Shown here: piece after piece, positions 8,171 through 52,410 of the stretch
Layout: every line of letters begins with the position of its first letter
Numbering within the stretch: the stretch's first letter is position 1
From: Apostichopus japonicus
Taxonomy: Eukaryota > Echinodermata > Holothuroidea > Aspidochirotida > Stichopodidae
DNA: 64,000 nucleotides
Assembly: GCF_037975245.1 (NCBI RefSeq)
Contig: NC_092574.1
Location: 25,898,713 to 25,962,712 of the forward strand
Reading direction: 5' to 3'
The notes under the pieces: model-generated
Database searches by the model: none
What the model saw: only the letters and a program-made list of their open reading frames with translations
What the model was told of the DNA's origin: nothing
Program-made: the position numbers and the translations under genes

Positions 8171-8376
8171 TTATTTATTATCCATAGCAATGTTCTCATC
8201 CGTTCGATTCGACGAGACCTGATGTTTACCATGGGGCTTGATGACGTCACCGACATTCTCTTGGACAATTCCTTTCCTTCGGCGTCGAGATACTGTCGCC
8301 AATATACAATCTATGAATTCGAAAATGGTTACGATGCTAGCTCCACCGAATAGACCCATATATGCGCCAATGTCAC
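8171..8376 (-). CDS. Gene B exon 10: TM2, selectivity filter, C-terminal tail
   Basis: The acceptor is the ttcaatTTCAG-type AG just after 8376. It begins with DIGAYMGLFGGAS, the pre-TM2 segment and filter, then TIFEFIDCILATVSRRRR. The cytosolic tail ends ENIAMDNK before the stop at 8171-8173. The tail is about 29 residues longer than in gene A. Confidence 0.9.
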
Positions 8377-11300
8377 CTGAAATTGAAAGAACCACAAGGA
8401 TGGATAAAAATGGAAGACAAATGGAAAGGAATAAAACCGAAATGAGGAATTACAATGGTTTGCTATAATATAATAATTTCGTTTCGTTTAGTTTATTTGT
8501 TTTTTTTCACAACATATATACAACAAATGTAGCGAATAATGAGAGTTATGGAATGTGAAAGGAAGTGCATCAAGAAATCCCTGTGGGCTTATCTAGTGTT
8601 ACACTCCCTTTACATAGAGTACACAAATAACTTACAAAAAAGAATGAAGAAAAGAACTAAGACAAAGAGAGGCAAAAGAAATGAAGGAAAGAGGAACCTC
8701 AATCTCAGTATAAGTTGAAGTAAAATCTCTTTAATTTGTATTTAAACGAATTTCGAAAAGGCAGTGTGACCTGATATTAAGAAGCAAAGAATTCTATCTG
8801 ATGCTTGTACGATGTCGATGGCAGTGGCGGAGCTAGGGGTATTGGTCAGGGGGGCGAGAATGTTCTGTAGGGGCGCTTTCGACACTATCTAAGCAGAGCG
8901 CCACCACAGGTTGGCGCGGAGCGTACAGAAATTTTTTGAGTAAAGATACTCCCTAGATCGCCGGAAATGACCCTTTCCGGGCCTTGCTAATTTTCAGATA
9001 AACGAAGAATAAATAGGTGTCATCGCCATTTTGTCAGAAAATTACACCAACAAAATGTGACAAATGTCAATAGGTAGATGAGAGCGCAATAAAAAAGTCA
9101 ATAATCGCGAATAAGTAAAAAGTGGTGAAAAGCTGCAAAGGGCGCCAACGGTCCATATGAGTCCGTCAGGGGGGGGGAGGGGGGACATCCGCCCCCTGAC
9201 TATATCGACGCTCCGCCACTGGTCGATGGCTATATTTTCCTACATTGGTGTGAATGCGATTAGGGCGTAAACTTTGTATGTGTCGTGTGTTCTAATTGTG
9301 AATGGCATGGTTGTGAACAAGGAAATTGTCGAAAGCAGGTGGGACCTGTCCATAAATAGCTCTATAGGCAAATGTGACTACATATACATTTATTAAATCA
9401 GGGAGCTTGCGGATGTTAAGATCTTTGAAAAGTTTACTTCTATGTTCATTGCAATTGACAAATAAAACGTGTCTAATTGCTCTTTTTTGAAGAACAAAGA
9501 GTTTTTTTTCAGCATGTGTGACTGGTACCAGACAATACTAGTATGCAGTATGTAAACTGTGGTGCGATTAAAGTAAGATATAACGAACGCAAAATTCTCT
9601 TGGGTAAAACATGCTTAAGTTTTGAGAGAAAGCCACAGCCCTTAGGAGTTAAATAATGGACGTAGCTACTTACTGTTTAGCATAAAATACACACTGGAAC
9701 AAAAGAATCATGACAGCTGTTTTTAACCAGAAATATAAGCAACTCAAAAGAATCTTTGATTTCTAGTTCCATCTTTTCATTTGACCATTGTTATAGCACT
9801 AAGGTTCTTGCACTAATTTTGATGCACATATCAAGTGTAAACTTTATTCATAATATTTGAGGTTGGAATTACTAAGGTTTACAGAATTTGCAAAATGGAT
9901 GCACATATCAAATATTAACTTCAACTATCCTTTATTAACATTGTCCTGCATGCCGTTTAAAGGAACGTTGCAAGGTATGAAGAAGGCATATGGCTGCAGA
10001 GGGTGGAAATGTATAGCCATGCAAGCGCCGCTACACAGCCCTTTAATTATCACTAGCAAATTATGAAACGCCAAAATGCATGAAGTTCCGAAAGCCTATC
10101 CATGTTCAGGCGGACGCTATATATATTCACTGATATATGGCTGATGTAAATATAATGTGTTGCTACTATTAATGGACATATATACTCGGTATCATTTTAC
10201 AAACTTGAGCAAGGTTAGAGCGTCATTGTATAAGACGTATTGCAGAACCCTAAGATATTGAATATTGCACACTGCGCATACCCCGCGCTAACTGCAGAAA
10301 GCTAACAGCTAAAGAAAACAGAAAAACTAACAAATACTATGCTGATCTGTATACAAGGTAAGATACATGATATATGCATTATGTTGCTGTGTAAATACAT
10401 GATTCGTTAACAACAGCGGCACATATCCATACCAGCTACACATTAAGGCACGTTACCGACAAATGAGTAAACCAGTATGGACCCATGATCTTATACGGCA
10501 TGGGTATATCTCTCTGAACACATGCATATCCGATGACCGTTTCGGCGTTCAATATACAGAAGGGCAGTAGAGTGGATGGTTTTTTGGATGAATGGAGTTA
10601 CAAGATGTGATGGATTTTAAGTCACTTGAGAGGTGGACTCGAGATGAGAGTCAGAGATATTTCTATTTAGAAATAATGTAAAGATAGAATGAGTGGAAAC
10701 GCTCAAATAGATTGTCTTAAAATGAAAGAATGGACTAGTAGCAAAATTAACTTCAAGATTTTCAAATTTCGTTCACTTGTCACATAAGTATAATATACAT
10801 GTATGTTAGTTAAAAGACTTGCACAAGATGGCATCTCGAACATGTGTTCACTTAAGTAGCGTCCCCTATCATTTTTTAACTTTCCTTCCACATCCCCCCC
10901 CACCGTTCCTTGGGCCTTTCACCCCTACTTTAAAACACACATGCCATACCTTTTGTCATTCGTGACTTTCTCAGTCCTGAAGGAAACTCTCTAAAATTGT
11001 ACAGATTGAAAACATTCGATCCTAAACTTTTGATAGAATTCTATGTTGTGACGATTCACTAACGCTACGATTTTAATGGCGTATGATTGGTCATGAGGGT
11101 ATGAATTTAAAGAAACAAAGCCAAGAAATACTTGTATGCCGCTAATATCACACTTATAAATCAACATATGACTCAATTATTTCAACTGTGTAGGAAAAGT
11201 GACGCACATAAAGTATAACTTGTTCCAAAGTTACTCTCCAATTTCAATTCGCTATGGCTTAAATTTTAATCCGTAAAAAGATTAATATCATTTGATTTAT

Positions 11301-14300
11301 CTTCTAGAACGTCCGATGATATTTGTGACCATTGTTCTACAAAAAGGGAGGTCAGTTTAAATTGTAAAAGAATCATTATGTATGAACCGGGAGAGGAGAG
11401 GGGTGGAGGTGAGTGAAGAACTTACTCTGTAGGGCGAAGTAATCATAACTCGGGGTTTGTGACAGTTCTTCAATCCCAAGAACATCGAAAAATAAGTTCA
11501 ATTCGAGAAAATTTGATCTGAGGAATCAAAAGAGAAAATTTTAATAAAGACAGAAATTTGACTTAAAATTTCAAGCGTTCGATTTTAAGAGGGGGGGGGG
11601 GGGTAGAGGAGGGGGTAATTTAATACATATTGTCCTGAACAACATAGAGTGAAGTTTGTCAGTTAAGCATTTTCGTAGGCAACGAATGATATATGTTTCT
11701 TTTTTTTTCTTCTTTTTTTAATTCATGACGTAATGTAAAATATTAAACCAGCTGTTTGTGTTTTAAATGTAACGTTTCATTTTAAGGCAAAACATGAAAT
11801 AAAAATATTGTAAACTTTTATGCATAATTGATGATTTCAAATGTTTTAATGCTTTTAGATCATCTAAGGATCTTCATATTTATTTTCTAGTTTTTGTTTC
11901 GTCCTTGCCCTATAGAAAAAATCCAAAATATGTATTAAATTAGATATATCAAATATATATTAAGCTTACCGCAAGAAATCTGTTGTCTTATTTAAATTAT
12001 TTGCTATGTAGGTTGCTTCGAAATCTGAAGGCCATAGAGTGAACGATATTTTCATCTCATACGCCTCCTCCTTGCAAGGAAGGGAACACTCACACGATGA
12101 GCATAGATCCGTGATGTTATCTAATATGATAGTGACCGAAGTAACAAAGATCGTAATCTTCACATTGCATCATCACGCAATAAGACAATATAATATGTTA
12201 ATATATGCAATGGATAAAGAAGAAAAAGATGACCAATACACTGATTTCTAAAAGTTGTGACATGCACTGTAGTCATGAGGGAGTCCCATAACAACACCCT
12301 GCTGCAACGTGCTATATGTAATACCCTATAGTACTTCACTTCAGTATAAAAGCTATTGAAATTTATGGTGTCAAATTATGTCAACAAAATTCTCTGTTGA
12401 CCTGTTAAATTATATTCTAAAAATTGCGTGCCACAATTAATGTTTATCTATTCATACCAAATTGGTCACTTTCCAAGGCCGTCAGGGGGAAAACAAGAAA
12501 AGACAAGAAAAAAAGTCATGGAGTTCCATACCCTCCATGTGATAGTTGTTGGTTTGGTCTATCCTGGATGCAATTTGTATCAACAATAATTGATACCATT
12601 ACAATGACGATTTTTGAGTCCCCAAGTTTACTTCGACTAAAATAGATATACAAGTTTTCAAAAGGATTTTTTTTTTTTAAGGTTATTAAGTTTGAAATTA
12701 TATTTTCACACATTGAGGTGTATGTGTGTTATATGAGACAAGCGTATATGTCTCACAAAGAAAGAAAAAAATGCTTACAAGTTGAAACCTAACCACTATT
12801 ATATATGCTTACCAGGTATCCTACCATCAATATGTTAGATGTTAGCTTGGGCTACCATGCTTGTCACTTGAGAGAACAAAACATGTAAATAGCCTCCTAC
12901 CGTTACAGTTTTGAATTTTTGTGTCCCGTTTCACGAACGAACTTTTAACATTTCTTTCCTCTTTAGAATGAACCTGGGCACGAAAAACCAAACAACAGAA
13001 CGACTGATCCGCTCTCAACCCCAGCCCCCTTTACATCAAGACTGTGACTGTGTAATGATCGTGAGGAGTGTATTACGATTGCCCTACAAGGGGAAACATC
13101 ATGATCTCAGACAAAATGTCGAGACTTACACATATTATTAGTCCCTAAGTTTAGCCTGCTAAAATAGATATAAAACTTTTCAAAAGTATACATTTTTGTT
13201 GGTGAGGTTATTAAGTTTAAAAATCTTGTTTTCATAGATTGAGGTGTACTACGTGTGTTATATTATACAAGGGTATACCTCAATACCTAAATCTTTGAGA
13301 ACGTTGAGTGCCTACCAAGGCTGATTGTTTAGGATAGGAGTAATACTGCAGACCTTTGATTTCTGCAGCTTTTGAACGGACTAAGCGTATATCCATACAC
13401 ATATATATACGTATTATTCTCATTGTTGTATGTTTACCAATCCATGACGTCACGCCATCTTGAGCGTTTATAAGGAATGACGTAACAAGTACAGCGCCAG
13501 ATTTTAATATGCATCAAGGGGCACTGCATATATATTCAGTATTGGGTTTTAAACTTTTAAGTTTTAACGCTTCATCGATCTAAATATATGCAGAATATTA
13601 CTATTTTACAACTATTAATAAAGGCATTATCTTGCAACATTTTGCTTAACTTGGAAGAAAATGCAACTTACTTATTGCTGGGAAAACACATTCCAGAATT
13701 TCCCTTAAATTGCAGAGTTCTTCAGTACCTGTCAGTACCGAAGAAAAGAAAGCTTATAGGAAACAACACTGAAGCTGCAGTGAGAAAGTTTACCGTAGTT
13801 GGGTAATGAAGGAAATTCAGTTATTATGTGATTGCTTGACTGAAAAACATAATATGGGCATATGTGGAGAGTGTAATTGAGTGTGAATGCGTGAGGGGAA
13901 GGGGAGGTGTGGGTGGGTGGGTGGGTGGGTGAGGAGGTATCAGAAAAGGTGAGGAGTCTCGGGAACACGAGTGGAGATTTGTCAAGGCAAAAACGAAGGG
14001 GGGGGGGGGGTATTTTTCTGGATTTGGGATATACGGTATATTATATTTATTGTAGAAAGGATGTGATGGAGAAAGATGAGTTTTTCGTGAGAGTAATAGT
14101 TCATAGTAATCTGCTACATATCTTGAATATGCATAACCTGTATTTGCATAATCTGTTACATATGCATTCAATAGTTTTGTAATAAATTACACATTAACAT
14201 CTTCACTCGATCGTATCCTTACGAGACCGTATATATGTTCTCTCTCTCCTTTTTCAAAGATATTTGGAAGGGAAATGCTTGCTCTCGTCAATAAATATGC

Positions 14301-17300
14301 AATTTTTCTTAGAATATTCCAATAAATGTATGCCTATATAACTGTGATGAACTATATGTATGAATTGTGGCCTGCATACCTGGGAACTGATAGTATCGAC
14401 ATCCACAATACTTTGTGATACAGTCAGCTTGGCATTCATAAAAGCAGGCTTCAGCAGAATAACTGATTGAGTGTTCGAGTTTCTTATCGCCGACACAATT
14501 AGAACTAAACGGATAGGGCAAGTTTGTGCTCTGCAAGGAATGAAAATACAAAATTGCAACTTAAGATTTACTTTTAAATACCACTAATAGTCTCCTTAAT
14601 TCATATATCAGGGCTTCTCAGTTCGGCTCGCGAAAAATGTTGAAGTCTATTTCAGTCTAGCCCCCGAAAAAACGAAGAAGAAAAACACACAAACAAATAT
14701 TTCATTAATCGAGGATACGAGTGATTAGGCCACTAAGAATAGTATATCCATATACCTCGGCCTAGCCTGTAGATTGTTAATCTGACTATAGTGGCCCTAA
14801 CCAGGTCTTTTGCCTTGTCCCTTCAGAAAATTACTTGAGAAACCTTACATATTTAACATAAATTTACAACAAACGGAGCGACGGAACATCGTCAACATGA
14901 ATTCATTGATTCGACATTGATTGTAGGTACACATTATGTTATCTACTTTGTAACATCAACACGTCCCTGCACTGTCAGCGTTTCTGCATACTGTATTGCT
15001 CATCCGCGTACGGCTTTATAGGGCAGAACAGAACCCACACTCTTACACGGTCTATACTAGACACTTAAGTGATATTACGTAATTATTACTCTACATTTGC
15101 ATATAATCACACATTTTGCTTGGTGACCCCAATTTTCAACGTCATCATCTCGGTCCGGGTAACCCTCCAGTGAAGGATGCTATGGCCTGGGAGGGGGGGG
15201 GGGGGGTATATGGGGAGGATATATTTGTGGTCACATTTGTGGTAACTAATTAAGCGTCGTAAAAATAACTGCTGATTATAACTATTATTAAACTCACAGT
15301 AATATCAAATATATAATTGATTTATACCCCACGCTAGACCTACATTGATGTAACTTACATTATATGTGAACATATACCACACTTTATATGCTACTTATAT
15401 TGATATAACTTACATTAGCCTATATATGTACATAACACACATTATACTTACAGTGATATAACTTACATTATATTTGTACATAACACACATTATACTTACA
15501 GTGATATAACTTACATTATATGTGTACATAACACACATTATACTTACAGTGATATAACTTACATGATATGTGTACATAACACACACTATACTTACAGTGA
15601 TATAACTTACATTATATGTGTACATAACACACATTATACTTACAGTGATATAACTTACATTATATGTGTACATAACACACATTATACTTACAGTGATATA
15701 ACTTACATGATATGTGTACATAACACACACTATACTTACAGTGATATAACTTACATTATATGTGTACATAACACACATTATACTTACAATGATATAACTT
15801 ACATTATATGTGTATATAACGCACACTATACTTACAGTGATATAACTTATTCTGACAGATGTCTTGAAACCCGGGGAAGCAGAGATACCGAACTGACCGA
15901 CTAGAGGGAATTGTCCTTTAGGATGTACGAAGATCTAACAGGAAAAGACATGAACAAAAGAAAGGTACAAATAAGCATACATACTTAAAGGAAGTTAAAT
16001 ACCTCCATTACCACAACACGTTACCCCTGTATACATATACCCACCATCACTCTTCTCCTCCCACTCGTCTAACCTCCCCTCTACTTTCCAAGGCACATCC
16101 CCTCCCGCATGTTCATCTTTACAAATAATTCCACTACCAGAAAAGTTTGCTCAATGACGCACTATATTCCCCCTGCCTCTCCTCCTGTAAGATTTCATTT
16201 CTTTGGATTCAGTTGTAGGAACTCTTGACGTGAAATGAATGAATACCTTAAAGCCAGCACCCGTGTAATAACCCCAGAAATAGTCGTACTGCTCCGCCGA
16301 TAGTCTCAATCGCAGCCCTTGAGAACTTCCAGCTTCGGTAATCATTAACTCCGAATTAGAAATCGAGTTAAAGGTATAGCACACCTGCGTATGGAAGAAA
16401 CCAAAACACCTCCTATTATGAATTGGGGGGTTATAAAATGACAATTCTGAGGGAAAAAATAATATTGAAAATATTCCTCTAAAGTCCACTTTCTTTGAAG
16501 ATTTAAACAATAGAAGGCTCCTCTGACATAAATGTATATCTTGACGTTTCTTCACCGCTTATAGACTATTCGTATCTAGGCAAGACACGGAACGCCAAAA
16601 GGGCCACAGGAGATGATAATGATATTAGAATACATCATGTTAATATAAAGGTACTTTTGTATTACCACGTATGTAGACCGCCGCCAGTTCCTTTATACTA
16701 TCATCTTCAACTATCGATTAATATCTGGCAGTATTTCAGTAAACAAGTAGGACTTTTAATAATACCTTATATATAATGGAGAACAAACCCCAATAAACTA
16801 TAAGGGAAAGAATTAAGAGGATATTCCTTCGGCAAATGATTGTGCCAAGCTTATATAAATCACTCCTCGGGCTCCTATATTTCATGAAATAATAGAGTTT
16901 TAGGTCATTTAACAGGCAGCAAGATTTCTTTTAGCGTTTGCGCAATTGGAATCGGGTTTCCATGGAAACTTGTTTCATACCCCGAAATCGGTAATGACGG
17001 TGGTAAAGTTGTGCGCTCCACATGTTTCTTCCTGGTTCCATGTGCATTCTATTAACATATCATCTAGCTGGTGGGCCAGTTTTATGGCCACCTCCGTCAT
17101 GTTCAAGTAGTCATCCATATCGTGGAGATCCCAGTCAATATCAACTGAATCACTGGTGGACAGAGATGTTAGAACCTAGAAGTAAAAAAAAACATGTATT
17201 TAATAGAAAAGATGCAAGCATGCAGGTAATACTGGACTTTTCTTGCTATTTGATAAGCCTCCTGCGATGAACATGCGACGTATAGCCACATCCGAAAAAT

Positions 17301-20300
17301 AAACAGTTCGAAGTTAGCGGGCAAAATAGCCGATAAACCTTGGTCACTAACTGGACCAAACATTCGTAGATCCCTACACCACCCGCCCCATGTCTCGTCT
17401 CGAAGATATCATTATTGTAGCCAATGAACTAGATTTTAATGCTTTCGCAAAAAGACACGCAACTTTACTTTCCGTGTAAAACTCTTTCAGACTGGACATT
17501 CATACTTGAAATATGCATTGATAATATCCGTGTATGGATGGCAGAAAATCGATTTAGTACTAAACGATAGGAAAACAGAAGTGGTTTATTTCCACAGTAA
17601 ATTCAGAAAGGATAAGAAAGAAAAAAACATCATAACCAATTTCAGAGTCGGTATATGACTCATGTTAAACCAGTCTCCGTTGTCCGAAAATTTAGGAGTG
17701 CATTTCGATGAACTTTTCCATCTCTGGTCATGTTTCAACAATGTGCCAGTCTGCAACATACTCGTTGTACCGTATCGGTTTAACTCGTTAGCTTTTATAC
17801 CACAACAGCACAGAGAGATTGATTCGTGCATTTGTTACATCACACCTCAATTATTGTAATAGTTAACTGTATGGAACTTGAGCACCAGCAACTTGCACGT
17901 CTTTAAAGGTGGGATCGCTCGTAAATTCTGTACCTCCATGGTCCTTCACACCACCCGATTCAAAATATAATATTAATACTGCCCTCAACTGGTTCGTCGC
18001 TGTTGTCTCGTAATTTCTATTAGCAATCCCGTATTTACGGCTAGTAAGCAATAAACGGGTTTGGGTTACTAGAGCGGTGGCCTTGACGAAATTCCTGCAT
18101 AGCTTCTTGTCTGCGGCAGTGTCAGTGGTGTGTGTGTAGTGTGCATAGAAAATTCATATACTCGGCAGCACGTATGGTCACAGGTACTAGGAAGCTCAAA
18201 CTCATCACTCCCATATACTGGTTGATCTTCACTGGCTACCTGTCTCCGCACGGATTGAATTCAAGTCTCTAGTCATTACATACAAGATTATAAATGGCAC
18301 TGCTTCTCGATATAAATCTCAGCACTATGGTCAGTCGTGCGGCTCTTCCCGGGCATTGGCAGATTGCCAATCGTACCGGACAGAGGAACAGGAACAGTCT
18401 GTGGAGGTCCGGCTGGAGCCTAGCAGCTTCGTCCAGAAAACTTTTGGTGTACGATTGTTTGCTTACTTTGCACCAGATCTCTAGAATGCACTAACTAAAT
18501 GACATTAGGACAGCACCATCATTAATTGTGTTTAAATCACTTCTAAAACACACCTTTTTTGGAAACATTTTGCATTCGTGCATTATAGGGATCTTGTCAT
18601 GTTGTTTTTATTATTGTTTTAGTCATTTATATATTCTCTCAAGCACTTTCTGTACAACTTGTCAACGTCGACAATTTTTATCGCTGTTTTAATATTTTAT
18701 TTTACCGCTGTATCAACTTTATACTTAATGGTCAAGTGCTTCGAGATCATATTTTATTTAAGGTGCTATATAAGAATAAAATGATTATTAAAAATGAGTA
18801 TTATGTCACTATATATGGCAACTTTGTGGCGATGGAAATGTAACATAGGGTATCGCTGATATAAATGAAGCAACTGTACAAGAGGTGGTTATGTACGTGA
18901 TTGGGAATGAGGTGGACTAGGGTGGGTGTACACTGCTTAAAGGGGTGCGTATGATGTGTAAATGTATCTATTGAATTGATATCAGTATGACGATATATAG
19001 TTAGTAGTACATCGTCCATAAATTATGGAGAGAAATTTCCAACACTATAATTTACATTTCAGGTGGAACCCCCAAGCTCTTTCTCTCTCTCTCCACCTCT
19101 CTCCTCCTCTCTCCACCCCTCTCTCTCTGTCTTCTCTCCCTACCCGCACCCCAGCCTTACCCCTACTGACCCCACTCACCAAAAAAAGGTTTAAAATGTC
19201 GTTAAAATGAATTGTTTAATTTTAAGGAATTCGACAGAAAAATCTTTACCGAACAAAAGGTCCTGCGTAAGAATTTGATGTTCATGCTATTTGTGCTATG
19301 AAAATGTAATTTTTACTTACTTCTCGCAAAAGAGTATAATTCTGCAAATGTGATTTTCGAAATTGGTTGTAATTACAAATTGTGACGGCAGGGAATTCTA
19401 GATTATTGACATAGTTGAACATAACGGCTGTAGAAATTGGATACGAAAAGTATTTGGTCAATCCGTTGACAATTCCATAAGCGAGCCAGACAGCCAAGCA
19501 CACCAGCAAAATCAGCCAGCATATTCTGTAAATCAAAATAATTTAAAAAAGAGAGATAAATAATATAAAATAATTTTAAACTAATTCGTTAATACTGTAT
19601 CTCCAAGTTTATAATTAAACTCGGCAACAGAATGTTGACAATCATGTTTCGTTATTGTTACTATAAATTGGGTACTTTAATTGTTCGTTTTCCCTTTTTT
19701 TTTTACTTCCATTACAGAAAAAAAATGTCTTCGTTTCAAAATAACCAGACTGAGCATTCGTTTGAATTTTTTCTTTTATTATTGTCAAATTTTGTCGGTG
19801 GTGAATATTTACTTTTTCATGTTTTTTAAAATACCTGTATCTTTATGTAAGATAGATGAACACACTAAAAAGAATCATAGGATATGTTTTCCCATAGACG
19901 TAAAAAAAAAGAACAGTTTTAAGTTAAGATAATTAAATATTGAGAGCAACTGGGCCCCGGTTACATGGTAACCCGAGAATGAGAGCAGAAATAGCTGTAT
20001 ATGAATAATGGTTATAAAATGGTAATAATGCAGGTATAGAAACGAATATTCGGTTGATTCCATGGCAACCTACGAAATTATACATTGGCAAGTTAGAATA
20101 ACACTGTGGTCCGAGTATTAGATTATATAAGGGGCGGGGCTCCCTGACAACCGTTTCTTGTCGGGTAGGGGAAGTGGAGTTGGAACCTTCTAACACGGTG
20201 TAGATGACCGTTCGCTACGTACCGTGCAGTAAAGGGGCGGGGGGGGGGGGGCGTCCTGACAACCCGTTTCTTGTAGTGTAAGGGGTAAGACAGCATACAT

Positions 20301-21224
20301 TATAGCACGATGTACAAGCCCATTCGCTATATCGTACAGTCAGGGGAGGGGGGGGGGGGATCCGTCAAACAATTCTTGCAGGGTTAGGGGTAAGACAGTT
20401 TACCTTCTAGCACTATGTATATGCCCATTCGCTATATCTTAAAGTTAGGGGGGAGGGGGGTTGTTCCGACAACGATTCTTGTAGTGTTAGGGGTGAGACA
20501 TATATACCTTTTAGCACGATGTACATGCCCATTCGATACATGTATCGTAAAGTAAAGGAAGGAGGGGGGTGTCCGTCAAACGATTCTTGCAGGGTTAGGG
20601 GTAAGACAGTATACCTTCTAGCACGATGTATATGTCCATTCGCTATGCATCGTAAGGTTAGGGGTGGTCCCGACAACGATTCTTGCAGGGTTAGTGGTGA
20701 GACTATATGCCTTCTAGCACGATGTATATGCACATTCGCTATATCGTAAAGTTAGGGGGGAGGGTGGTCCCGACAAACGATTCTTGCAGGGTTAGGGGTG
20801 AGACAGTATACCTTCTAGCACGATGTATATGTCCATTCGCTATATCGTAAAGTAAGGGGGGTGGTCCCGACAACGATTCTTGCAGGGTTAGTGGTGAGAC
20901 TATATGCCTTCTAGCACGATGTATATGCACATTCGCTATATCGTAAAGTTAGGGGGGGGGTGGTCCCGACAAACGATTCTTGCAGGGTTAGTGGTGAGAC
21001 AGTATACCTTCTAGCACTAAGTACATGCCCATTCGTTATGTATCGTAAAGTTAGGGGGTCCCGACAAACGATTCTTGCAGGGTTAGGGGTAAGACAGTAT
21101 ACCTTCTAGCATGATGTATACGCCCATTTGCTACGTATCGTACGCCATGTAGAGTTGTTTCTTCAGCAAATCGGCTTGCCCTGGATTTGGTCACCTCATT
21201 GCGTTGTGGTCCCCGGTCGTTCAT
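8171..21224 (-). CDS. DEG/ENaC (ASC family) sodium channel subunit, gene B
   Basis: A complete ten-exon coding sequence of 471 codons, joined by eye: 21103-21224, 19321-19525, 16981-17175, 16247-16384, 15836-15934, 14380-14530, 13672-13728, 11970-12120, 11426-11517, 8171-8376. All phases fit and the total (1416 nt) divides by three. Residues 1-41 are cytosolic with the His-Gly gating motif at 26-27. TM1 lies near 42-62, followed by FPAVTICNYNQFR, the ASC-family signature after TM1. The large extracellular domain has Cys-rich stretches (CRYYQFP, SCECSLPC, LWPSDF). TM2 carries the GAS selectivity triplet at 415-417, then four Arg and a 30-residue tail. The family forms trimeric Na+-selective channels gated by protons, peptides or force; the ligand here is unknown. 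It is a tandem paralogue of gene A. Introns after exons 1 and 5 start with splice-donor tandem arrays. Confidence 0.9.
8690..9535 (-). mobile_element. LINE reverse-transcriptase C-terminal fragment
   Basis: On the minus strand, about 9535 down to 9235 reads LQKRAIRHVLFVNCNEHRS, then LFKDLNIRKLPDLINV and FAYRAIYGQVPPAF. This is the typical end of non-LTR retrotransposon ORF2 proteins. It has an in-frame stop and continues past the hAT MITE that interrupts it (8822-9221) to about 8690. It is a dead fragment in the last intron of gene B, read in the same direction as the gene. Confidence 0.75.
8814..9229 (+). mobile_element. hAT-type MITE, copy 2
   Basis: The element (8822-9221) has ends CAGTGGCGGAG / CTCCGCCACTG and a perfect 8-bp target duplication GTCGATGG at 8814-8821 and 9222-9229. 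It is inserted into a LINE fragment, so it is younger than that fragment. It is the same family as 3005-3384, with a poly(G) expansion near its right end. It has no coding capacity. Confidence 0.9.
11426..11517 (-). CDS. Gene B exon 9: extracellular palm/wrist strand
   Basis: 92 bp, the same length as gene A exon 9. It encodes NFLELNLFFDVLGIEE...SYDYFALQ, corresponding to the beta-strand region preceding TM2 in ASC channels. It is bounded by CAG upstream and GTAAGT downstream on the minus strand. The frame joins exon 8 through a split Arg codon. Confidence 0.9.
11970..12120 (-). CDS. Gene B exon 8: Cys-rich SCECSLPC segment
   Basis: 151 bp, matching gene A exon 8. It encodes CSSCECSLPCKEEAYEMK, then ISFTLWPSDFEA. 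The C-x-C-x3-C pattern followed by a WPS motif is characteristic of the DEG/ENaC extracellular domain. The acceptor is TTAG and the donor is GTAAGC. Confidence 0.92.
12950..13095 (+). repeat. Dispersed repeat, copy 1
   Basis: It shares a block with about 26315-26435, including GGGCACGAAAAACCAAAC and CTGATCCGCTCTCAAC and the following GACTGTGA region. It lies in a gene B intron and has no recognised protein. Family unknown. Confidence 0.6.
13672..13728 (-). CDS. Gene B exon 7: 57-bp micro-exon
   Basis: Found by comparison with gene A exon 7, which has the same length. It encodes TEELCNLREILECVFPAI after the split Gly codon, aligning with the C-x(n)-C stretch of the paralogue (PVPLCSPRQIVQCVLPAQ). 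The acceptor is GACAG and the donor is GTAAGT. It is too short to show up as an isolated open frame. Confidence 0.85.
14380..14530 (-). CDS. Gene B exon 6: ACFYEC / YCGCRYY segment
   Basis: 151 bp encoding LPYPFSSNC..., SYSAEACFYECQADCI and YCGCRYYQFP. The paired cysteines and the CGCR motif are DEG/ENaC thumb-domain hallmarks. The acceptor is TTGCAG and the donor GTATGC. It ends in phase 1, joined to exon 7 through Gly. Confidence 0.92.
15340..15835 (-). repeat. 48-bp tandem array carrying copies of exon 5's splice donor
   Basis: Nine clean copies of a 48-bp unit plus one or two degenerate ones directly abut exon 5 of gene B. The blocks complementary to the GTAAG donor start at 15447 and recur every 48 bp to 15831, which is the exon's own donor. 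On the minus strand each unit reads TAAGTTATATCACT then GTAAGTAT; the first 14 nt equal the last 14 nt of exon 5 (residues SYIT) and the rest the intron start. A second GTAAGTTAT lies 15 nt upstream in each unit. The exon's frame runs on without a stop to 15410, through every donor. Confidence 0.92.
15836..15934 (-). CDS. Gene B exon 5: HPKGQFPL / SPGFKTS segment
   Basis: 99 bp, phase 0 at both ends, the same length as gene A exon 5. It encodes IFVHPKGQFPLVGQFGISAS, then PGFKTSVRISYIT, matching the conserved 'H-P-x-G-x-F-P' and 'S-P-G-F' region of ASC channels. Its 3' end and donor are repeated in tandem in the following intron. Confidence 0.93.
16247..16384 (-). CDS. Gene B exon 4: CYTFNS / AGSSQGLRLRL segment
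   Basis: 138 bp, phase 0 at both ends. It encodes VCYTFNS, then AGSSQGLRLRLSAEQYDYFW and GYYTGAGFK. 'CYTFN' and 'G-x2-x-GL-x-L-x-L' are conserved in the family. The acceptor is ACGCAG and the donor GTATTC, weaker than consensus. Confidence 0.92.
16981..17175 (-). CDS. Gene B exon 3: finger-domain segment with TDFG
   Basis: 195 bp, phase 0 at both ends. It encodes SVDIDWDLHDMDDYLN, HQLDDMLIECTWNQEETCG and NFTTVITDFG, the conserved block preceding CYTFN in ASC channels. The acceptor is CTAG and the donor GTATGA. Confidence 0.93.
17500..18795 (+). mobile_element. CR1/L2-like LINE 3' fragment
   Basis: The plus strand carries pieces of a CR1/L2-clade reverse transcriptase in shifting frames: DNIRVWMAENR, LVLNDRKTEVVYF, SENLGVHFDEL, later ITPI and LHWLPVSARIEFKSLVITYK, then VRLFAYFAPDL near the end. 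The 3' end has the L2-like tail AAGTGCTTCGAGATC, then GGTGCTATATAAGAATAAAA and a short A/T-rich end. A stretch of about 270 bp near 17880-18160 does not fit and is probably an insertion. It lies antisense in the gene B intron between exons 2 and 3. Confidence 0.8.
19321..19525 (-). CDS. Gene B exon 2: TM1 and post-TM1 signature
   Basis: 205 bp. It begins with the first nucleotide-completed Arg codon, then the TM1 helix CWLILLVCLAVWLAYGIV. It continues KYFSYP and the ASC signature FPAVTICNYNQFRKS. The acceptor is TTTACAG and the donor GTAAGT. Confidence 0.95.
20150..21102 (-). repeat. ~94-112 bp tandem array carrying copies of exon 1's 3' end and donor
   Basis: Counting exon 1 itself there are ten copies. 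The plus-strand CTTCTAGCA-type blocks (complement of the exon end) start at 20187, 20299, 20404, 20508, 20615, 20711, 20812, 20908, 21009 and 21103. On the minus strand each unit holds about 36-40 nt of exon-1-like sequence (reading ANGHIHRARR), a splice-donor position, and about 55 nt of intron ending in a poly(C)/G-rich linker that varies in length. Most copies keep GT; those at 20711 and 20908 have GC. Reading through from exon 1 hits a stop at 21051, before the next donor. Confidence 0.92.
21103..21224 (-). CDS. Gene B exon 1: N-terminus with His-Gly motif
   Basis: 122 bp encoding MNDRGPQRNEVTKSRASRFA, then EETTLHGVRYV and a basic RIHHARR end. The His-Gly pair before TM1 is the DEG/ENaC gating motif. 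The donor is GTATAC and the split codon AG+A gives Arg, in phase with exon 2. I chose the ATG at 21222-21224 as the first in-frame Met; the frame stays open a little upstream without another ATG, so a non-coding 5' exon is possible. Confidence 0.9.
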
Positions 21225-21429: not shown

Positions 21430-22400
21430 CGTTCTGATACTCCAGAGGAAAGCTAGTGAAGGACGGTATAGCGAAGGACGCTAGTGAAGGAAAGCTAGTG
21501 AAGGAAAGCTAGTGAAGGAATTAAGGTAGTGAAGGAAAGCTATTGAAAGAAAGCTATTGAAGCAAAGCTAGTGAAGGAAGGTAGTGAAGGAAGCTTGTGA
21601 AGAAAAGCTATGAAAGGAAAGCTAGTGAAGGAAGGTTGTGAAGGGAGGTAGCGAAGGAAAGCTATTGAAGGAAAGTTATTGAAGGAAAGCTAGTGGAGGA
21701 AGGTAGTGAAGGACGCTAGTGAAGGAAAGCTAGTGAAGGAAAGCTAGTGAAGGAATTAAGGTAGTGAAGGAAGCTAGTGAAGGGAAACTAATGAAGGAAG
21801 CTAATGAATGGAAGCTAGCGAAGGAGCTAGAGCTAGTGAAGGAAAGCTAGTGACGGAATTAAGGTAGTGAAGGAAAGCTATTGAAAGAAAGCTATTGAAG
21901 GAAAGCTAGTGAAGGACGGTAGTGAAGGAAAGCTAGTGAAGGAAAGCTAGAAGAAGAAATTAAGGTAGTGAAGGAAAGCTATTGAAGGAAAGCTAGTGAA
22001 GGAAGGTAGTGAAGGAAGCTTGTGAAGAAAAGCTATTGAAGGAAAGCTATTAAAGGAAAGCTAGTGAAGGAAGGTTGTGAAGGAAGGTAGCGAAGGAAAG
22101 CTATTGAAGGAAAGTTATTGAAGGAAAGCTAGTGGAGGAAGGTAGTGAAGGACGCTAGTGAAGGAAAGCTAGTGAAGGAAAGCTAGTGAAGGAATTAAGG
22201 TAGTGAAGGAAGCTAGTGAAGGAGAGCTAATGAAGGAAGCTAATGAATGGAAGCTAGCGAAGGAGCTAGAGCTAGTGAAGGAAAGCTAGTGACGGAATTA
22301 AGGTAGTGAAGGAAACTATTGATAGAACGCTATTGAAGGAAAGCTAGTGAATGGAGGTAGTGAAGGAAGCTAGTGAAGAAAAGCTGGTGGAGGAAACTAG
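21430..22400 (+). repeat. GCTAGTGAAGGAA minisatellite with higher-order repeat
   Basis: Roughly 950 bp of 12-14 bp units around AAAGCTAGTGAAGG and AAGGTAGTGAAGG. Variant units recur in the same order about 425-436 bp apart (compare 21593 with 22018, and 21821 with 22257), so a ~430-bp block has been duplicated as a whole. It lies just upstream of the gene B start codon. Confidence 0.9.
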
Positions 22401-22403
22401 TTA

Positions 22404-22666: not shown

Positions 22667-23790
22667 TGATTGGAAGTAAAACAGCCAATGTTTGGTTTTT
22701 GCAGAGCTTTCGAGCAAAACTAGCTCTTCTTCAGTGCATGATCACCGAAAGTGACAAGGAGTAGCAGGAATTGAAACTGTTTTATAGAGAAGATGTCGGC
22801 ATGATTGTAAAGGCAAAGCGACTTACTGATTTCTGGTGAATTGAGCAGAAGTTTTAGAAATTCGGATTATTTTAATCCGCGTTGGATTATTTTAATCCGA
22901 TTCCGTCGTAATTGTAAAGGAATTGTTTTGGTTTATCTGGGACGGCAAATCGTTTCTGATGTTTAAACCGAATGGTACCGTGGTCTTTAGGTTTAGTTCC
23001 CAGAAATTTTCTTTCGCTTTCCTAGATTTATCTGTCCAAGAATCGTTCTGGTCAATGGCAATAACACGCAAATTCTCAATTGAATGATTTTGGAGATTGA
23101 AGTGATTTGCAACAGGTTGGTAGATCTTTTTTGTTTTGATCGCCGATCTATGTTGTGTCATTCTCATTCTAAGAGTGTTTTTGACTCTCCAATGTATTGT
23201 AAGTTACAAATATTGCAGTAGATGAGGTAAATGACATTTTTGGATAGGCAGTTAATTTTGTGCCGAATTTGGAACGTGCGTTTGGTTTGGTTGCTCTGAA
23301 AGGCCCCGGTCGAATCGACAAGTAAGCACGTTTTGCAATATTGTGTACAGGGCGATGATCTTGTAGTTTGTTTTGCTTTCCCCTAATGGGGTGTCATCCC
23401 GAAAGGATGCCCGAACTAAGATATCCCGTAGGTTGCTGGGTCTTTTAAAAGCGATGACAGGTAATTCTGGGAATACTGATTTCAGGCGTTCGGTGCCTTG
23501 AAGTAGGTGAAAATTCTTCTGAATGATATTAGCCAGTGGTGGGAGACCAGGGTGGAATTCAGTAACCAATGGTACCCTTTTGGAACTGGTTTGACGAGTT
23601 TTGTACGTCAATGTTTCGGTACGGGGTTTGCTTTTAGCCTTTTTGATGGCATTTTCAATAGTACCCCGAAAATACTGTCTGTTTAGGAGGTGTTGTGACA
23701 GTTTTTTAGTGCGTGAATCAAAATCGACTTAAGAGGAGCAAATGCGTCGAATGCAAAAACCAAACATTGGCTGTTTTACTTCCAATCACT
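22665..23790 (-). mobile_element. Penelope-like element remnant between 38-bp inverted repeats
   Basis: The ends 22665-22702 and 23753-23790 are perfect inverted repeats of about 38 bp (GTGATTGGAAGTAAAACAGC at the left). The minus strand encodes the C-terminal part of a Penelope-like protein in broken frames: KRVPLVTEFHPGLPPLANII, FPELPVIAFKRPSNLRDILV, then a GIY-YIG endonuclease start (VIYLIYCNICNLQYIGES), followed by VANHFN and a PFGLN end. A stop and frame shifts show it is not active. Penelope-like elements are GIY-YIG-bearing retroelements. A hammerhead-like motif lies near 22715-22735. Confidence 0.8.
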
Positions 23791-34054: not shown

Positions 34055-34173
34055 TCAGTTTAAGTCTACTGGTCTTCGACGTCGAGATATTGTCGCTAAT
34101 AAGCAGTCTAGAAATTCGAAGATAGTTATAACGCTAGCGCCACCTAATAGGCCCATGTATGCCCCTATGTCAC
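34055..34173 (-). CDS. Gene A exon 10: TM2 and stop
   Basis: 119 bp encoding DIGAYMGLLGGASVITIFEF, LDCLLATISRRRR and a five-residue end PVDLN before TGA at 34055-34057. The acceptor is TTTCAG. The tail is much shorter than in gene B. Confidence 0.9.
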
Positions 34174-37100
34174 CTGAAATTTAAAGAACAGAAAATCAGT
34201 CACTTTATGACGATAATGTATAGAAATGAGTATTTAAATATGAATGCAGATGAACACATGAGTACAAGTTAATGCGTGGGTGGTACAACTCTGAATACCA
34301 GAGAGTCAAAGTGTGAGCGTAAATTCTACAGTGTGTATGTGAGCAAAAATGAATATGGTGAGTAGCCTACAAACATGTAAGAACCCGTGGGAGTGCATGA
34401 GTGAGTACAAAAAAATCAGTGTGTCAAAGTGTGAGAATGAGTACAATTGTGTGCATGTGATTAGAGGTGAGTATGTAGGTACCCATGAGTATGTGAGAGT
34501 ATTCTCGAGGATGTGAATAAATGTATGAAGTAAAGTGAGTACCAAAGAGTCTATGAACAACATATTATGTGAGAATGAGTACAAGTATGAGAATGAGTAC
34601 AATTGTGTATATTTGATTAGAGTACTCATGAGTATGTGAGAGTATTCTTGAGGATGTGAATAAATGTATGAAGTAAAGTGAGTACCAAAGAGTCTATATG
34701 AACAACATATTATGTGAGTAAAAATTGAATTGATGAGTATACAATATATATATATAAGTGCGTGAGTGATTGAGAGAGCACAAATCAGTATAAATGAAAT
34801 TATGAGTACAGATGAGTTTATGAGTACAACACAATTGTTAAATATACATGGAAGATCTGATTCATTCCTTTCGTATTTACAGTAACCAAAAATGTATATG
34901 ATGAGAAGCTAGAATTTGTGCATATCATTTTGATTATTTGACCAATGAGTAAAAGCTGTTTTCTCCTCTTTAAATATGTTTGCCACAACCCCTCCCGGCC
35001 TACACCTCTCCCCTCTCCAGCTCCCTCCCCACACCCCATCCCTTCTCCCACACTTCGTACCGCTATTAGGCTGTTTTTGCTCTTGCATTTAATTTCTGTA
35101 TGTGCAGTACTGCCTTACGTGTTTCGTGAATCATTGTTAAAATGAAGCTTCGAATTACTTTTAAAAACAGAATAATAACTGTCATATTATTGACTTACTT
35201 TGAAGTGCAAGGAAATCATAACTAGGTACTTGTAGAATCTGCTGATATCCGAGAATGTCGAAAAATATATTCACCTCCAGATAATTCGATCTAACATATA
35301 TATAACAAAAGAAAAGACAAAGAATATTACAATGACCTATGATTTTACTCAATTCTTTTTTTACCGAAAAATCAAGACTCGAAAATTGAAGAAAGTTTGA
35401 CCATAATCACTAAATTTCACAGTGTCATGATGTAAGTCTTATGTTATGTATCTATAAATGTATTATATTGTATTGTCTTCCACCATGACAAAGCACAATA
35501 CAGGGGGGGGGGGGTGTCATTTAAGAAGTTGACACAAAGCACTCAATCTAAATTAAAGGTTTCATTTTCAAAAATCAATTTTGTTTGTCAGGAAATTGCC
35601 TTTTAAAACACAGAGAGCAGATCTGAGATTTCAATTCCATCGATTTTGTATTTTGTTTGTTTCTTGTCGTCATTCTTGGTTGTGAAATTCATTCATGCAG
35701 CGATTCAAAACGTGTAATATATATCAGCATTGTCATGTGACTTTAGTATAGGAGATCGACTGTTTGCACGCGTTTATCAGGATCAACGCAAAAATATTAA
35801 ACAGTTAAAGACGCTGGACTTACAAGTTTAAGAAATGTGAAATTCGCTATATAATTAGAACATACCTATTTTCCCCCGTTCATTAGTAACATGGTAGTTA
35901 GTGCACATAAAAATATACCAATTACAAATGATGTTAGCTCTTTTGAATAAATAAAGATTTAAAGTTAAAACCGCAAAGTTGACAGTGGTATACAAACAAA
36001 TGTAGCTCAATGATGGATAACCTTGTTGTAGCAAGTAGGTCTCAGCCTATAGGCTAGTTTACGAAGTATCTATAATTAATACAATATGATTTACTCTGTC
36101 GGTCCATTGTCTTACACTCATATAACACACTGACTGAATTACTATACTCCCTGTACCGTTTCCTCTCCACTGTTACCATATATGTTTTTACAGAGAGACG
36201 GTTGTTTGGGGGGGGGGTGAGGGGGTGAGGGGGGCCTAGTGTTTAGCATAAAGAGGGCCTAATTAAGTGGGAATACACTGAGAAGTCAACAGTGTCTGTC
36301 TGAACCGAGAAAATGACGTCATGATCAAAGTTGCTTTAAAGCGAATTCCGTATATTTAGAAAGTGTATGTTATGACCAAAAAAAGAGGAAGGACAGAAGA
36401 AAGTAAAACAAAAACTATACAAATTCGCAATAAACACAGAAATATATATACGTTCACTTATCATGCTTTTGTTTCATACAAACATACCGCTTAATTTGCC
36501 TGACGCCATCCAAGAAGAATTTAAAAAAAAATGAACCGTATATAAGGAACGCCGTATGTGAAACAATATACTTCTAGTTGTACGGCTGTCACAACAAAGT
36601 TATTGTTTTGTGATTACCGTTGTTCGAGTGCTCTGATCTGTGATTAAAAATTAATCCTTCGCGCCCACCCCCCGCCCCCCAATAAACCCACCCCTTACCC
36701 GTTCATCTTTAACAAAATTGCAAAATATTCTGAGATTTGACGTACATGACTGAGACTGCTTACCGTATAAACTCTTTCGTGTGATTATAATATTTGGATA
36801 CTTCCTCCGTTTCAAAGTCTGAAGGCCAGAGAGCTAACGATATCTTGATGTCATAGGATTCATGCATACAAGACACTGGACAATCGCACTGAATATTCAA
36901 AACGCTAAAAGAATCTGCCAAAGAGAAAAATAAACACAGACCAGTGTATCAATGTCTGAATGTAAATAGAGTATATTCAAGAGCGTCTGTTTGGCAGAGG
37001 TCCGCGTAAAGCGATACAGCTGCCATGTACGATAAAGCAATGTGCGATCTTATACAGTTAATTCTTGATTTAATTTGTTCGCAATGACGTCATATACTGT

Positions 37101-40100
37101 CCGGTGAACAACCTCCAATCTTTACCTATTTGACTTACTGACGGCCTCCTTTATATAAACCACTCATTCTTGGCTGTGTTTCAAGAAATTAATACTTTTC
37201 AGTACTAAATTCATATGAAAATGATGCGTTATATTATCTTGTCTATATATAGTCAAATGCAGGTATCTTTCTAAACCATGATGTATAAACACACATCGAA
37301 AGCTTGATTTGCTGGCTCGCATACGGATATGACCATAATAAACAAGTTTGGGGGCGACATTTTGTTTTGAATATAATGGAAGCATTAAATATGTAATATG
37401 GTGTCACAAATGCTATAGAATATGTCTCAAGTTTATGAATTGCAATCTAAGTTTGGGGGAAAATAATCAGACTAGAGTTGATATAAAGTTAACAACCAAG
37501 GAATTGACAATTTTTATTTTCATTTCAAATTTTTATTTGTCATCATATTTGCTTTCAACATTTTCTTGCAAAACTCGTTTGATAGTCAGTGAAAGTGATT
37601 TTGTATGTAATACTTTGAAATTTATTAGTAACATGGAATGACAGACAATCAACGAATAATTCAAAAACCAAATGACTTGAACTGTTTGCTATTGTTTTAG
37701 AGGTTCTTATTCCCCTTTGGTCTCGATTAAGTAGGATTATACAATTATAACGAGTTATGTTGTTTGTTTTTACATTTTACAATCGTGTAAATGGAAGGCT
37801 GTGATATGAACTCATTTTAATCTATATAGAACATAATAACAGCGATTTCAATGTTAAAAACAAAACAGCACATTTCTCTCTAGCACTGAGAGTTTACTAA
37901 CATCTTTCTTGGCACAAACAGCATATTTCTTGTCAAGTATTAACTGCTTAGACAAACAACACCCATTCGCATAGATGAGAATTGAGCGAGCAGAAGAAGG
38001 TAACTATTAAGCGCAATATTACTTTTTGAAAATTTATTCAGCCGGGACATTTCTTTAATTGAAATGATTAATTTGTATAAACAGTTACTTACCTTGCGCT
38101 GGTAGAACACACTGTACAATTTGCCTGGGACTGCATAGAGGTACAGGACCTAGTAGTGGAAAGATAATTTTGTCTTGGAAAAGAATCCATACAGAGAAAC
38201 GGTGTTAGTAAAGCTGTTTCAAAATACACAATGATGATGATGATGATGACGATGATGATGATGATGACGATGATGATGATGATGGTGATGATGATGACGA
38301 TGATGATGATGGTGATGATGATGATCATGATGATGATGATGACGATGGTGATCATGATGGTGATGGTGGTGATGATGATGGTGATGATGATGATGATGGT
38401 GGTGATGTTGATGGTGATCATGATGATGATGATGACGATGGTGATCATGATGGTGATGGTGGTGATGACGATGGTAATGATGGTGGTGATGTTGATGGTG
38501 ATCATCATGATGATGATGATGATGATGATGGTGATGATGGTAATTGTGACGACGACGACGATGATGATGACGATGGTGATGATGATGATGGTGATGATGG
38601 TGGTGACGATGGCGATTATTGTGGTGATGCTGATGATGGCGATTAATATAGTGATGGTGATGATAATGATGATGATGTAAGGTTGTGCTAATAGTGCCTT
38701 TATGTTTCTTGCGTGGGGTTTAAAAAATGGGGAGGGGCTTGTGCAGCCCTCTACACCCGCGCCTTACATCTGGCCTGATGACATTCGCATACCACATAAA
38801 GTGAACCACTTCCTGGTAGAATCGAGGGTAAGTCAATTAAAATTAGTTACATTTATTCATCAAATTCTCGATTTAGGAGGGATATGGAGATGGGATCAAA
38901 TTGGTTTTTTTTTTTAAATATTTTTCTATAGTGTTTCATTGTCTGACATTGTAATCTCCCGTTAAGCATTTTTTCTAGTTATTTTATTTTTATTATAATT
39001 TTACATGGATACGTTAGAGTGGTGCAACCTGAAGAGTGAAATACATCTTTAACAATTCATAATTTCGTAGTGCTTTTTTTCTTTCTTGCAATAATAATTA
39101 CTATATATTCCGATTTGTGCGCGTGATCTTCTTTGAGTCACGGTCACGAGGGTGCACTAAGCTGTATGAACATACCCACCCAACTGCCAGCAACCAGACA
39201 GCTAATTCTTTTCCAATCAATTTTAACCTAATCTGTCATTTTTCAATGATCTGATATTCGAACAATCTCGCTTGTTTTGACAGTACAGTAAGTAATACTC
39301 TAATAAAAGATTTAAGAAGAAGAAAGTGGACAATTTCCGAGAGTTGTAAAAAAAGTTCCTTTTTGCCATTCCAACTGAAGCAATATGAAGTCATTCTTTG
39401 CATACATTTGTTGGTAAGTGTAGTCTCACATTCTATTTAATCTTGTATATGTACCTTTAAGTTCGTAGCTCTATTGTATGTGTAGTAAGAAGGAATGCAG
39501 TTTGTGGATCAGTTAAGTGCCTTTTGTTACAGCTCTGCTTCGGACTATTGTTAGGTTAATCAGGTTGTATTGTTAGTGTCCTACCTTAAAGTAATCTTGT
39601 TTTCTGTTACTGTAGCCTACTGTTCTGTTACTGTACTGTACTGTGCTGTACTGTACTGTTCTGTTACTGTACAGTTTATCCTCAGTCTCTGTTATACTCT
39701 TGTAGAGAGAACAAGTTGTGTGCAGCAACAGGCTGTAACGTAGGCGTAGGAGCCCAATTTGATTTGGGGGGGGGGGGGCTGTAACGACTTGCCCGAAAAA
39801 TATAAACAACATTTTTTTGCGCGCACCGCGCGTTCAACATCTTAATGTACATATCATATATATGCATGCATCGGTTATTACATCGCATGCCAATTACATA
39901 CAATCAATTGTCGTGTTATTAGCCTTCCATATTAGTTATCATTTTGGGGGAAGTAATAATACTGATAATAATAATATAAATTTAACCATTGAAAAACCCA
40001 TTGCAATTTAGTTTTCTTCAAAAGAAATTCTTAGCATATTGCCAGAATTTTCACAAAAAATTTGGTTGGGGGCTGCAGCCCCCAGCCCCACCTCCTAAGT

Positions 40101-40948
40101 CCCCGCCTCCTACGCCTATTGGCTGTAATATTCTCATCTGTCTCATGCGTATTCTCTAGCTAACTCTTAACAGCATTTACATAAACGAGACGGTAATGAG
40201 AAACTGAGACAGCAACAGGAATTTAAGAATCGTTGGGGAGGGGTGAGAGAGCGAGGGGTGGGGGCGGATGGTGAATGGAGGTCACATAGAATGCTATCGG
40301 TTAGCGCAAACGGGTTGTTTTTGGACAGTTGTGCGAATAAACTTGTGGCGATCTTAATTTTTACTAAAAACTTAATACTTAAAAAGCAAATTACCTGGGT
40401 ACTTATAATAGCGACAACCACAAAATTCTGTTACAATCTTAGCCTCACATTCGAACCAACAAGCTTCCGTAGAATAGTTAAGAGAGTACTGGAGTTTGGC
40501 GTCGGAACAGTTAGACTTGTATGGTGTTGGCAAACTTTTGCTCTGCAATGAAAAAAAAATGAAAAAGGAAGAGATGTTTTCCTTTTAATTATCATTTTCA
40601 TAACTTGATAGTTTTCTTCAACACATAACGTTGCGTTACTTGTCGACCGTTGACCGAATTACTATTTTTTGACGTGTTGTCATGCAAGCTATGTGCATCG
40701 CACACGTGGGGCAGTGACCCAGTAAAACTTACACAGTGATAAAAGGCAAAGCAAATAAGAGACAAAGAATAATATAGCACAAGATAAATATCAATTAGAG
40801 GTTGTTGAGTTCTAGAAACAGATGAGTCTTCAGAGTTGATTTGAGGGTCTCAGGGGAAGGAGAGAGCTCGATGGATTGAAGTTGTTAAGTTTGTAAACTG
40901 TTGCCGCCTTTAGCTTTATTTCAATATCTATATATATATATATATATT

Positions 40949-40981
<33 letters not shown>

Positions 40982-40986
40982 TATAC

Positions 40987-41030
<44 letters not shown>

Positions 41031-44000: not shown

Positions 44001-44105
44001 CGCGTGAAACTCCGAGTTACAGTATTCCACTAGTCTCAACATATTCCGCTCTGTCCCCCGGACATATATCACTCTGCGCCAAGATAGACGCCAACCAACC
44101 AACTC

Positions 44106-44170
<65 letters not shown>

Positions 44171-52331: not shown

Positions 52332-52410
<79 letters not shown>

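Follow-up and report, generated by a model that had tools for sequence, protein, structure and literature searches.

The window, by which we mean the whole stretch of 64,000 nucleotides of Apostichopus japonicus DNA that was analysed, carries two ten-exon genes for DEG/ENaC (ASIC-like) channels, both on the minus strand: gene B at 8174..21224 and its paralogue gene A at 34058..52556. In a profile search with six gene pieces, five matched the Pfam family ASC (PF00858) at E ≤ 0.001, three of them above the family cut-off; the piece composed of exon 5 of gene B and the repeat array behind it had no PF00858 match. Among solved structures, 28 distinct PDB sequences match, with ASIC1 in first place (E 2.9e-31). 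The closest database relatives are acid-sensing-channel models from A. japonicus itself, of which P0001 corresponds to gene B and P0003 to gene A. Ten exons could be placed for each gene from these two models, the internal ones with AG before and GT after, and where the alignment is clean the exons are about 95–100% identical to the models. The exception is exon 6 of gene B (14380..14530, minus strand, starting with STNLPYPFSSNC; acceptor gcag before, donor GTATGC after), which is 84% identical to that of P0001. Another model, P0002, has a version of exon 6 like that of the window, in a shifted frame. There may be two alternative copies of exon 6 in A. japonicus; a tblastn search with exon 6 of P0001 found no second copy of gene B exon 6 in the window.

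Further repeats lie in and beside the two genes. In the third intron of gene A, a 122-bp unit is repeated five times with hardly any differences (46708..47313, 97% matches), and just upstream of exon 1 of gene B a 14-bp repeat (about 68 copies) occurs with a 439-bp higher-order repeat (2.1 copies) at 21446..22401. At 23164..23728 on the minus strand, the residues of open frames resemble part of what is presumably a retroelement polyprotein.

The donor array behind exon 5 of gene B

Exon 5 of gene B (15836..15934, minus strand) comprises 99 nt and is in phase 0 at both ends; TAG precedes 15934 and GTAAGT comes after 15836. Its 33 codons (IFVHPKGQFPLVGQFGISASPGFKTSVRISYIT) encode residues identical to the 33 of P0001. 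Donor 1, which follows the exon (15828..15835, minus strand), is the octamer GTAAGTAT and the ancestral donor; the same octamer stands in gene A at 42323. Altogether, nine GTAAGTAT donors lie in tandem on the minus strand (15444..15835), with the G of GT at 15835−48k (k = 0 to 8), that is at 15835, 15787, 15739, 15691, 15643, 15595, 15547, 15499 and 15451. A preliminary description of this DNA had announced nine in-frame donors exactly 48 bp apart, and all steps are indeed exactly 48 bp; its position 15835 is correct, whereas its range from 15447 to 15831 is off by four bases. TRF reports the homogeneous part of the minisatellite at 15421..15849 (minus strand; period 48, 8.9 copies, 96% matches, score 788). 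The unit was said to contain the last 14 nt of exon 5 together with the donor, and these 14 nt do precede all eight later donors, seven times as exact copies and once, ahead of the second donor, with a single C>T; the three bases before the main donors are ACT at eight sites and ATT at one. The second donor-like site that had been placed 15 nt away and in frame was found as well. This site, GTAAGTTA (15459..15802, minus strand; G at 15802−48k, k = 0 to 7), occurs once per full unit, is in frame in 8 of 8 and lies 33 nt past one main donor and 15 nt ahead of the next. Four units (2, 4, 5 and 7) are identical to the consensus; the same two changes are found in both unit 3 and unit 6. On the minus strand of the window, GTAAGTAT is otherwise present only at 46357 and at the exon 5 donor of gene A.

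The reading frame of exon 5, open from 15934, continues through the array up to its first in-frame stop, a TAA at 15412–15410 on the minus strand, just as previously described. Past the homogeneous part, about two and a half further units align locally with the consensus unit at 15286..15420 (minus strand; score 101); they go beyond the preliminary description. These distal units are decayed: the main-donor relics ATAAGT, GTAGGT and GTGAGT are accompanied by indels and stops, and donor, frame and length are all degraded.

When the exon-derived 14 nt were kept fixed and the other 34 were shuffled, the unit was open in 28% of the shuffles; multiplied by about 1/3 for a length divisible by three, this gives, as a hand estimate, a chance of roughly 9% for an open in-phase array. 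On the plus strand, too, one frame runs open across the unit. Selection on the open frame was considered and rejected. Only 7 of 144 single changes create a stop and none of the 48 transitions does, so nothing can be concluded from the few observed changes being free of stops. All nine donor octamers are intact, and the six variable sites among the 48 all miss the 14 donor positions; the chance of this is 0.11, and donor conservation was discarded as a signal of selection, the selection tests tried being without power. RNA hairpins bridging the donors found no support either: at z = +1.76, the array folds no better than its shuffles, 97 of 100 of which did as well or better.

Donor choice and its effect on the channel

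The NCBI model P0001, named isoform X2 and the single member examined from a cluster of six sequences, joins exon 5 directly to exon 6 (SYIT to STNL), as the use of donor 15835 would. With the array peptide as query, no protein was found at E ≤ 10 among 5022 and 3020 word-sharing candidates; these searches cover gene models, not transcripts, and 90%-identity clusters could conceal a variant. The A. japonicus model P0002, which lies on a contig of 1.39 Mb as compared with 28 Mb for P0001, continues for 15 residues past SYIT, ending in YTYN, and then enters a frame-shifted exon 6. At the protein level, the similarity of these 15 residues to the array is not significant (best coding-frame score 34, shuffled mean 38). 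By back-translated codons, the best fit of the extra stretch in intron 5 is unit 1, and its last base is precisely 15803, which directly precedes the second-type donor at 15802; the codon-level score was reached by 0 of 60 shuffles within unit 1 and by 3 of 60 over the whole intron. Both P0002 and P0005, a gene A model from a contig of the same length as that of P0002, contain frame-shifted stretches. P0002 is therefore taken as a weak hint: this faulty gene model appears to enter the array and to use the site at 15802.

The array had been suggested to be a length-variable protein switch. In such an arrangement, distal donors would be used on purpose and would add 16n (or 11+16n) residues that tune gating or surface expression of the channel. 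Every one of the nine main donors and eight second donors is in phase 0, with no stop between them, P0002 appears to use the first of the second-type donors, and eight units would bring in 8 cysteines and 6 NxS/T sequons, with one cysteine in each unit and a sequon in most. The preliminary description had located the insertion in an extracellular loop. The extracellular domain is correct; homology and a structure model of fair quality, however, place the junction in a beta-strand, close to where the strand ends. In chicken ASIC1, numbered from W288, the homologous position falls between residues 280 and 281. In the P0001 model, the junction at 267/268 is inside the strand 258–269, two residues before its end; the local pLDDT is 88 (block 261–270) and the mean only 65.1, and our reading relies on the local strand. 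This model was built on 7 of the 15 proteins found, leaving out P0002, P0005 and P0006 (faulty or an exon short), P0010, P0011, P0012 and P0014 (short) and P0015 (weak match). An insertion at the junction is present in 0 of the 7 aligned family proteins, P0002 being outside the alignment, and P0009 lacks five residues just after it. The adjacent L281, a gating residue with a strong effect on recovery and desensitisation of ASIC1, belongs to a patch that touches L414 in the desensitised state, and L281A is reported to speed both processes (PMC7041949), so changes at this place would matter. By homology and by the P0001 model, an insert would thus come to lie where a core strand ends, and 16 residues with a cysteine and mostly a sequon would be likelier to harm the channel than to tune it. 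Considering also that the array peptide is without any scoring protein, that P0001 is spliced at the first donor and that the open frame is no rarer than about 9% by chance, the switch finds little support and we regard it as unlikely. The version in which donor competition adds 0 to 8 units of 16 residues (or 11+16n), set in each animal by the copy number of its alleles, seems less probable still.

The preliminary description had also thought of decoy 5′ splice sites for U1. The extra donors could act without being spliced, by holding U1 snRNPs that promote exon 5 definition, protect against premature polyadenylation or provide a backup for the first donor. Within 15340–15835 lie 19 of the 48 GTAAGT motifs on the minus strand of the window. 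All nine main donors pair with U1 at −7.3 kcal/mol, the full second sites at −5.4 to −5.5 kcal/mol. The U1 footprint is given as 23 + 12 nt (PMC6002489). Because the 48-nt spacing exceeds these 35 nt, nine U1 particles could occupy the main sites together, and the second site, 15 nt off, could not be bound in addition. Upstream donors are described as enhancers of an authentic donor (Hicks 2010, as cited in PMC6002489), and if the P0002 sequence is right, the first donor may be altered there and a later site used. Nevertheless, we consider a docking function improbable, as the pairing of the exon 5 donor is middling (joint 8th among the 18 donors of the two genes), the octamer stands alone at exon 5 of gene A and the distal copies have decayed.

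Between two comparable 5′ splice sites, the one nearer to the intron is favoured, in a way that is not known according to PMC6002489. Applied to the array, this preference would make donor 9 (15451) the main donor and put 128 array-coded residues into the protein. P0001, however, is free of array residues, and no protein carrying them was found. In human IFI6, the form of 130 residues is said to be that of the first donor. The same form has been reported as predominant (PMC4526556). Predominant use of donor 9 is thus very unlikely in our view.

That the length of the array or the exactness of its copies results from misassembly is very unlikely. The array was read in one assembly; its unit variants, however, stand in an interpretable order that grades into the decayed units, and P0002, from a separate contig, seems to hold a sequence like that of unit 1.

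Origin of the array

Gene A was said to have the same exon and donor without an array, and this holds true: its exon 5 carries the same GTAAGTATA donor, no array follows the octamer at 42323, and a TAG stands three codons into the intron. The exon 5 ends of genes A and B align (AGAATTAGTGATGTCATT vs AGAATAAGTTATATCACT). Since gene A shares the octamer and the aligned exon end without having the array, the exon/intron junction predates the array and was then copied. Past the first 9 nt, no significant similarity is left between the intron starts of the two genes, 163 of 1000 shuffles having scored equally well.

Another donor-spanning array, likewise beyond the preliminary description, follows exon 1 of gene B (20242..21142, minus strand, detected by TRF). 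Like the array behind exon 5, it repeats the end of its exon together with the donor, here AAG/GTATAC, nine times and extends into the intron. It differs in its unit of about 96 bp, its stronger divergence (69–78 of 85 positions in common with the first copy), its broken frame and its donors, 2 of 9 of which have GC instead of GT. The spacings are 95, 100, 96, 101, 96, 107, 104 and 105 bp, and the frame is lost at 5 of the 8 steps. P0001 and P0002 both pass from the residues of the first copy (IHHARR) into exon 2. Exon 5 is thus not the only place with an array of donor copies, and such arrays can persist out of frame. Two of 14 listed arrays in the window span a donor, a count often reached under random placement, which gives a mean of 1.1 and a probability of 0.32 for two or more; the 14 were picked by hand from 51 TRF rows, leaving out di- and trinucleotide runs, duplicate rows and some short arrays.

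We propose, with a probability of roughly 0.7, that the array is a minisatellite that took its start from the junction between exon 5 and intron 5, with donor 1 dominant and the other donors as bystanders that may be used leakily. Among the three readings offered in the preliminary description, a neutral minisatellite born from a splice site is the best supported one, namely by the array-less paralogue, the distal decay, the signs of a three-unit duplication and the out-of-frame exon 1 array. A functional role for the array is not supported. The array would have started with a tandem duplication of a 48-bp segment, 14 nt of it from the end of exon 5 and 34 nt from the start of the intron. The tandem copies may then have expanded and been homogenised via unequal exchange or slippage; a duplication of 144 bp, i.e. 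three units, would leave the changes shared by units 3 and 6. The distal end would have decayed, and exon 5, judging from the gene models, would retain its original donor for most splicing, with the eight other main donors as bystanders of perhaps low-level use. Because 48 is divisible by three and no stop occurs in frame, a leak would cost 16 residues and no frameshift, and selection to remove the array would be weaker.

Creation of an intron by tandem duplication was considered and rejected. In this process, the units are expected to provide both an acceptor and a donor, and the units of the array are without acceptors. The AGs of the consensus unit are all inside GTAAGT; units 1, 3 and 6 have an extra TATAG before TG, with no pyrimidine tract by eye.

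The array among repeats that supply splice donors

Tandem alternative donors of the GYNGYN type are several donors at one exon end, a few nt apart. The array of gene B has in common with them the several donors per exon end, but its main sites are spaced at 48 nt and separated by entire repeat units. Human IFI6 (6-16, G1P3) is said to have a minisatellite of about 26 copies of a 12-nt unit, a length that keeps the reading frame, in the gene of a small protein. The sea cucumber array differs from it by its 48-nt unit, its nine good copies, its two donor-like sites per unit and its place in the extracellular domain of an ion channel. The likeness lies in a minisatellite supplying multiple splice donors, which was described for IFI6 by Turri, Cuin and Porter (1995, Nucleic Acids Res 23:1854; cited in PMC2572611, PMC4526556 and PMC3618361). 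Two downstream repeat units are reported to serve there as donors and to give rise to three mRNA species (PMC4526556). At gene B, known here from sequence and gene models, the tandem units each carry a donor and begin at the exon end, and the 48-bp unit preserves the reading frame, which is open to 15412. As to the use of more than one unit as donor, the gene models point to donor 1 in P0001 and apparently to 15802 in the faulty P0002. By its anatomy, the array is thus a further case, in an echinoderm, of the kind for which IFI6 is the direct precedent. PMC3039753 and PMC12783039 also describe minisatellites within spliced transcripts or close to them, and no donor-copying array was met among these. 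A literature search, with most subscription papers outside its reach, found no published report of the present locus.

In conclusion, nine donors with equal octamers, near-identical flanks, equal spacing and a common phase constitute a natural test of donor choice. Each choice should be visible in the mRNA as an insert of 16n codons that would escape nonsense decay, and gene B itself offers a built-in contrast in the out-of-frame array behind exon 1. P0001 and the IFI6 case point in the direction opposite to the intron-proximal preference of PMC6002489, and because of this conflict the transcripts of the locus are worth reading. If distal donors were used on purpose, a hypervariable minisatellite would directly set the length of an ion-channel protein. 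The locus is an example of a repeat that grows beside a needed splice site with no evident harm to the reading frame of the gene, and even if the array is neutral, it would still stand as another clear case like that of IFI6.
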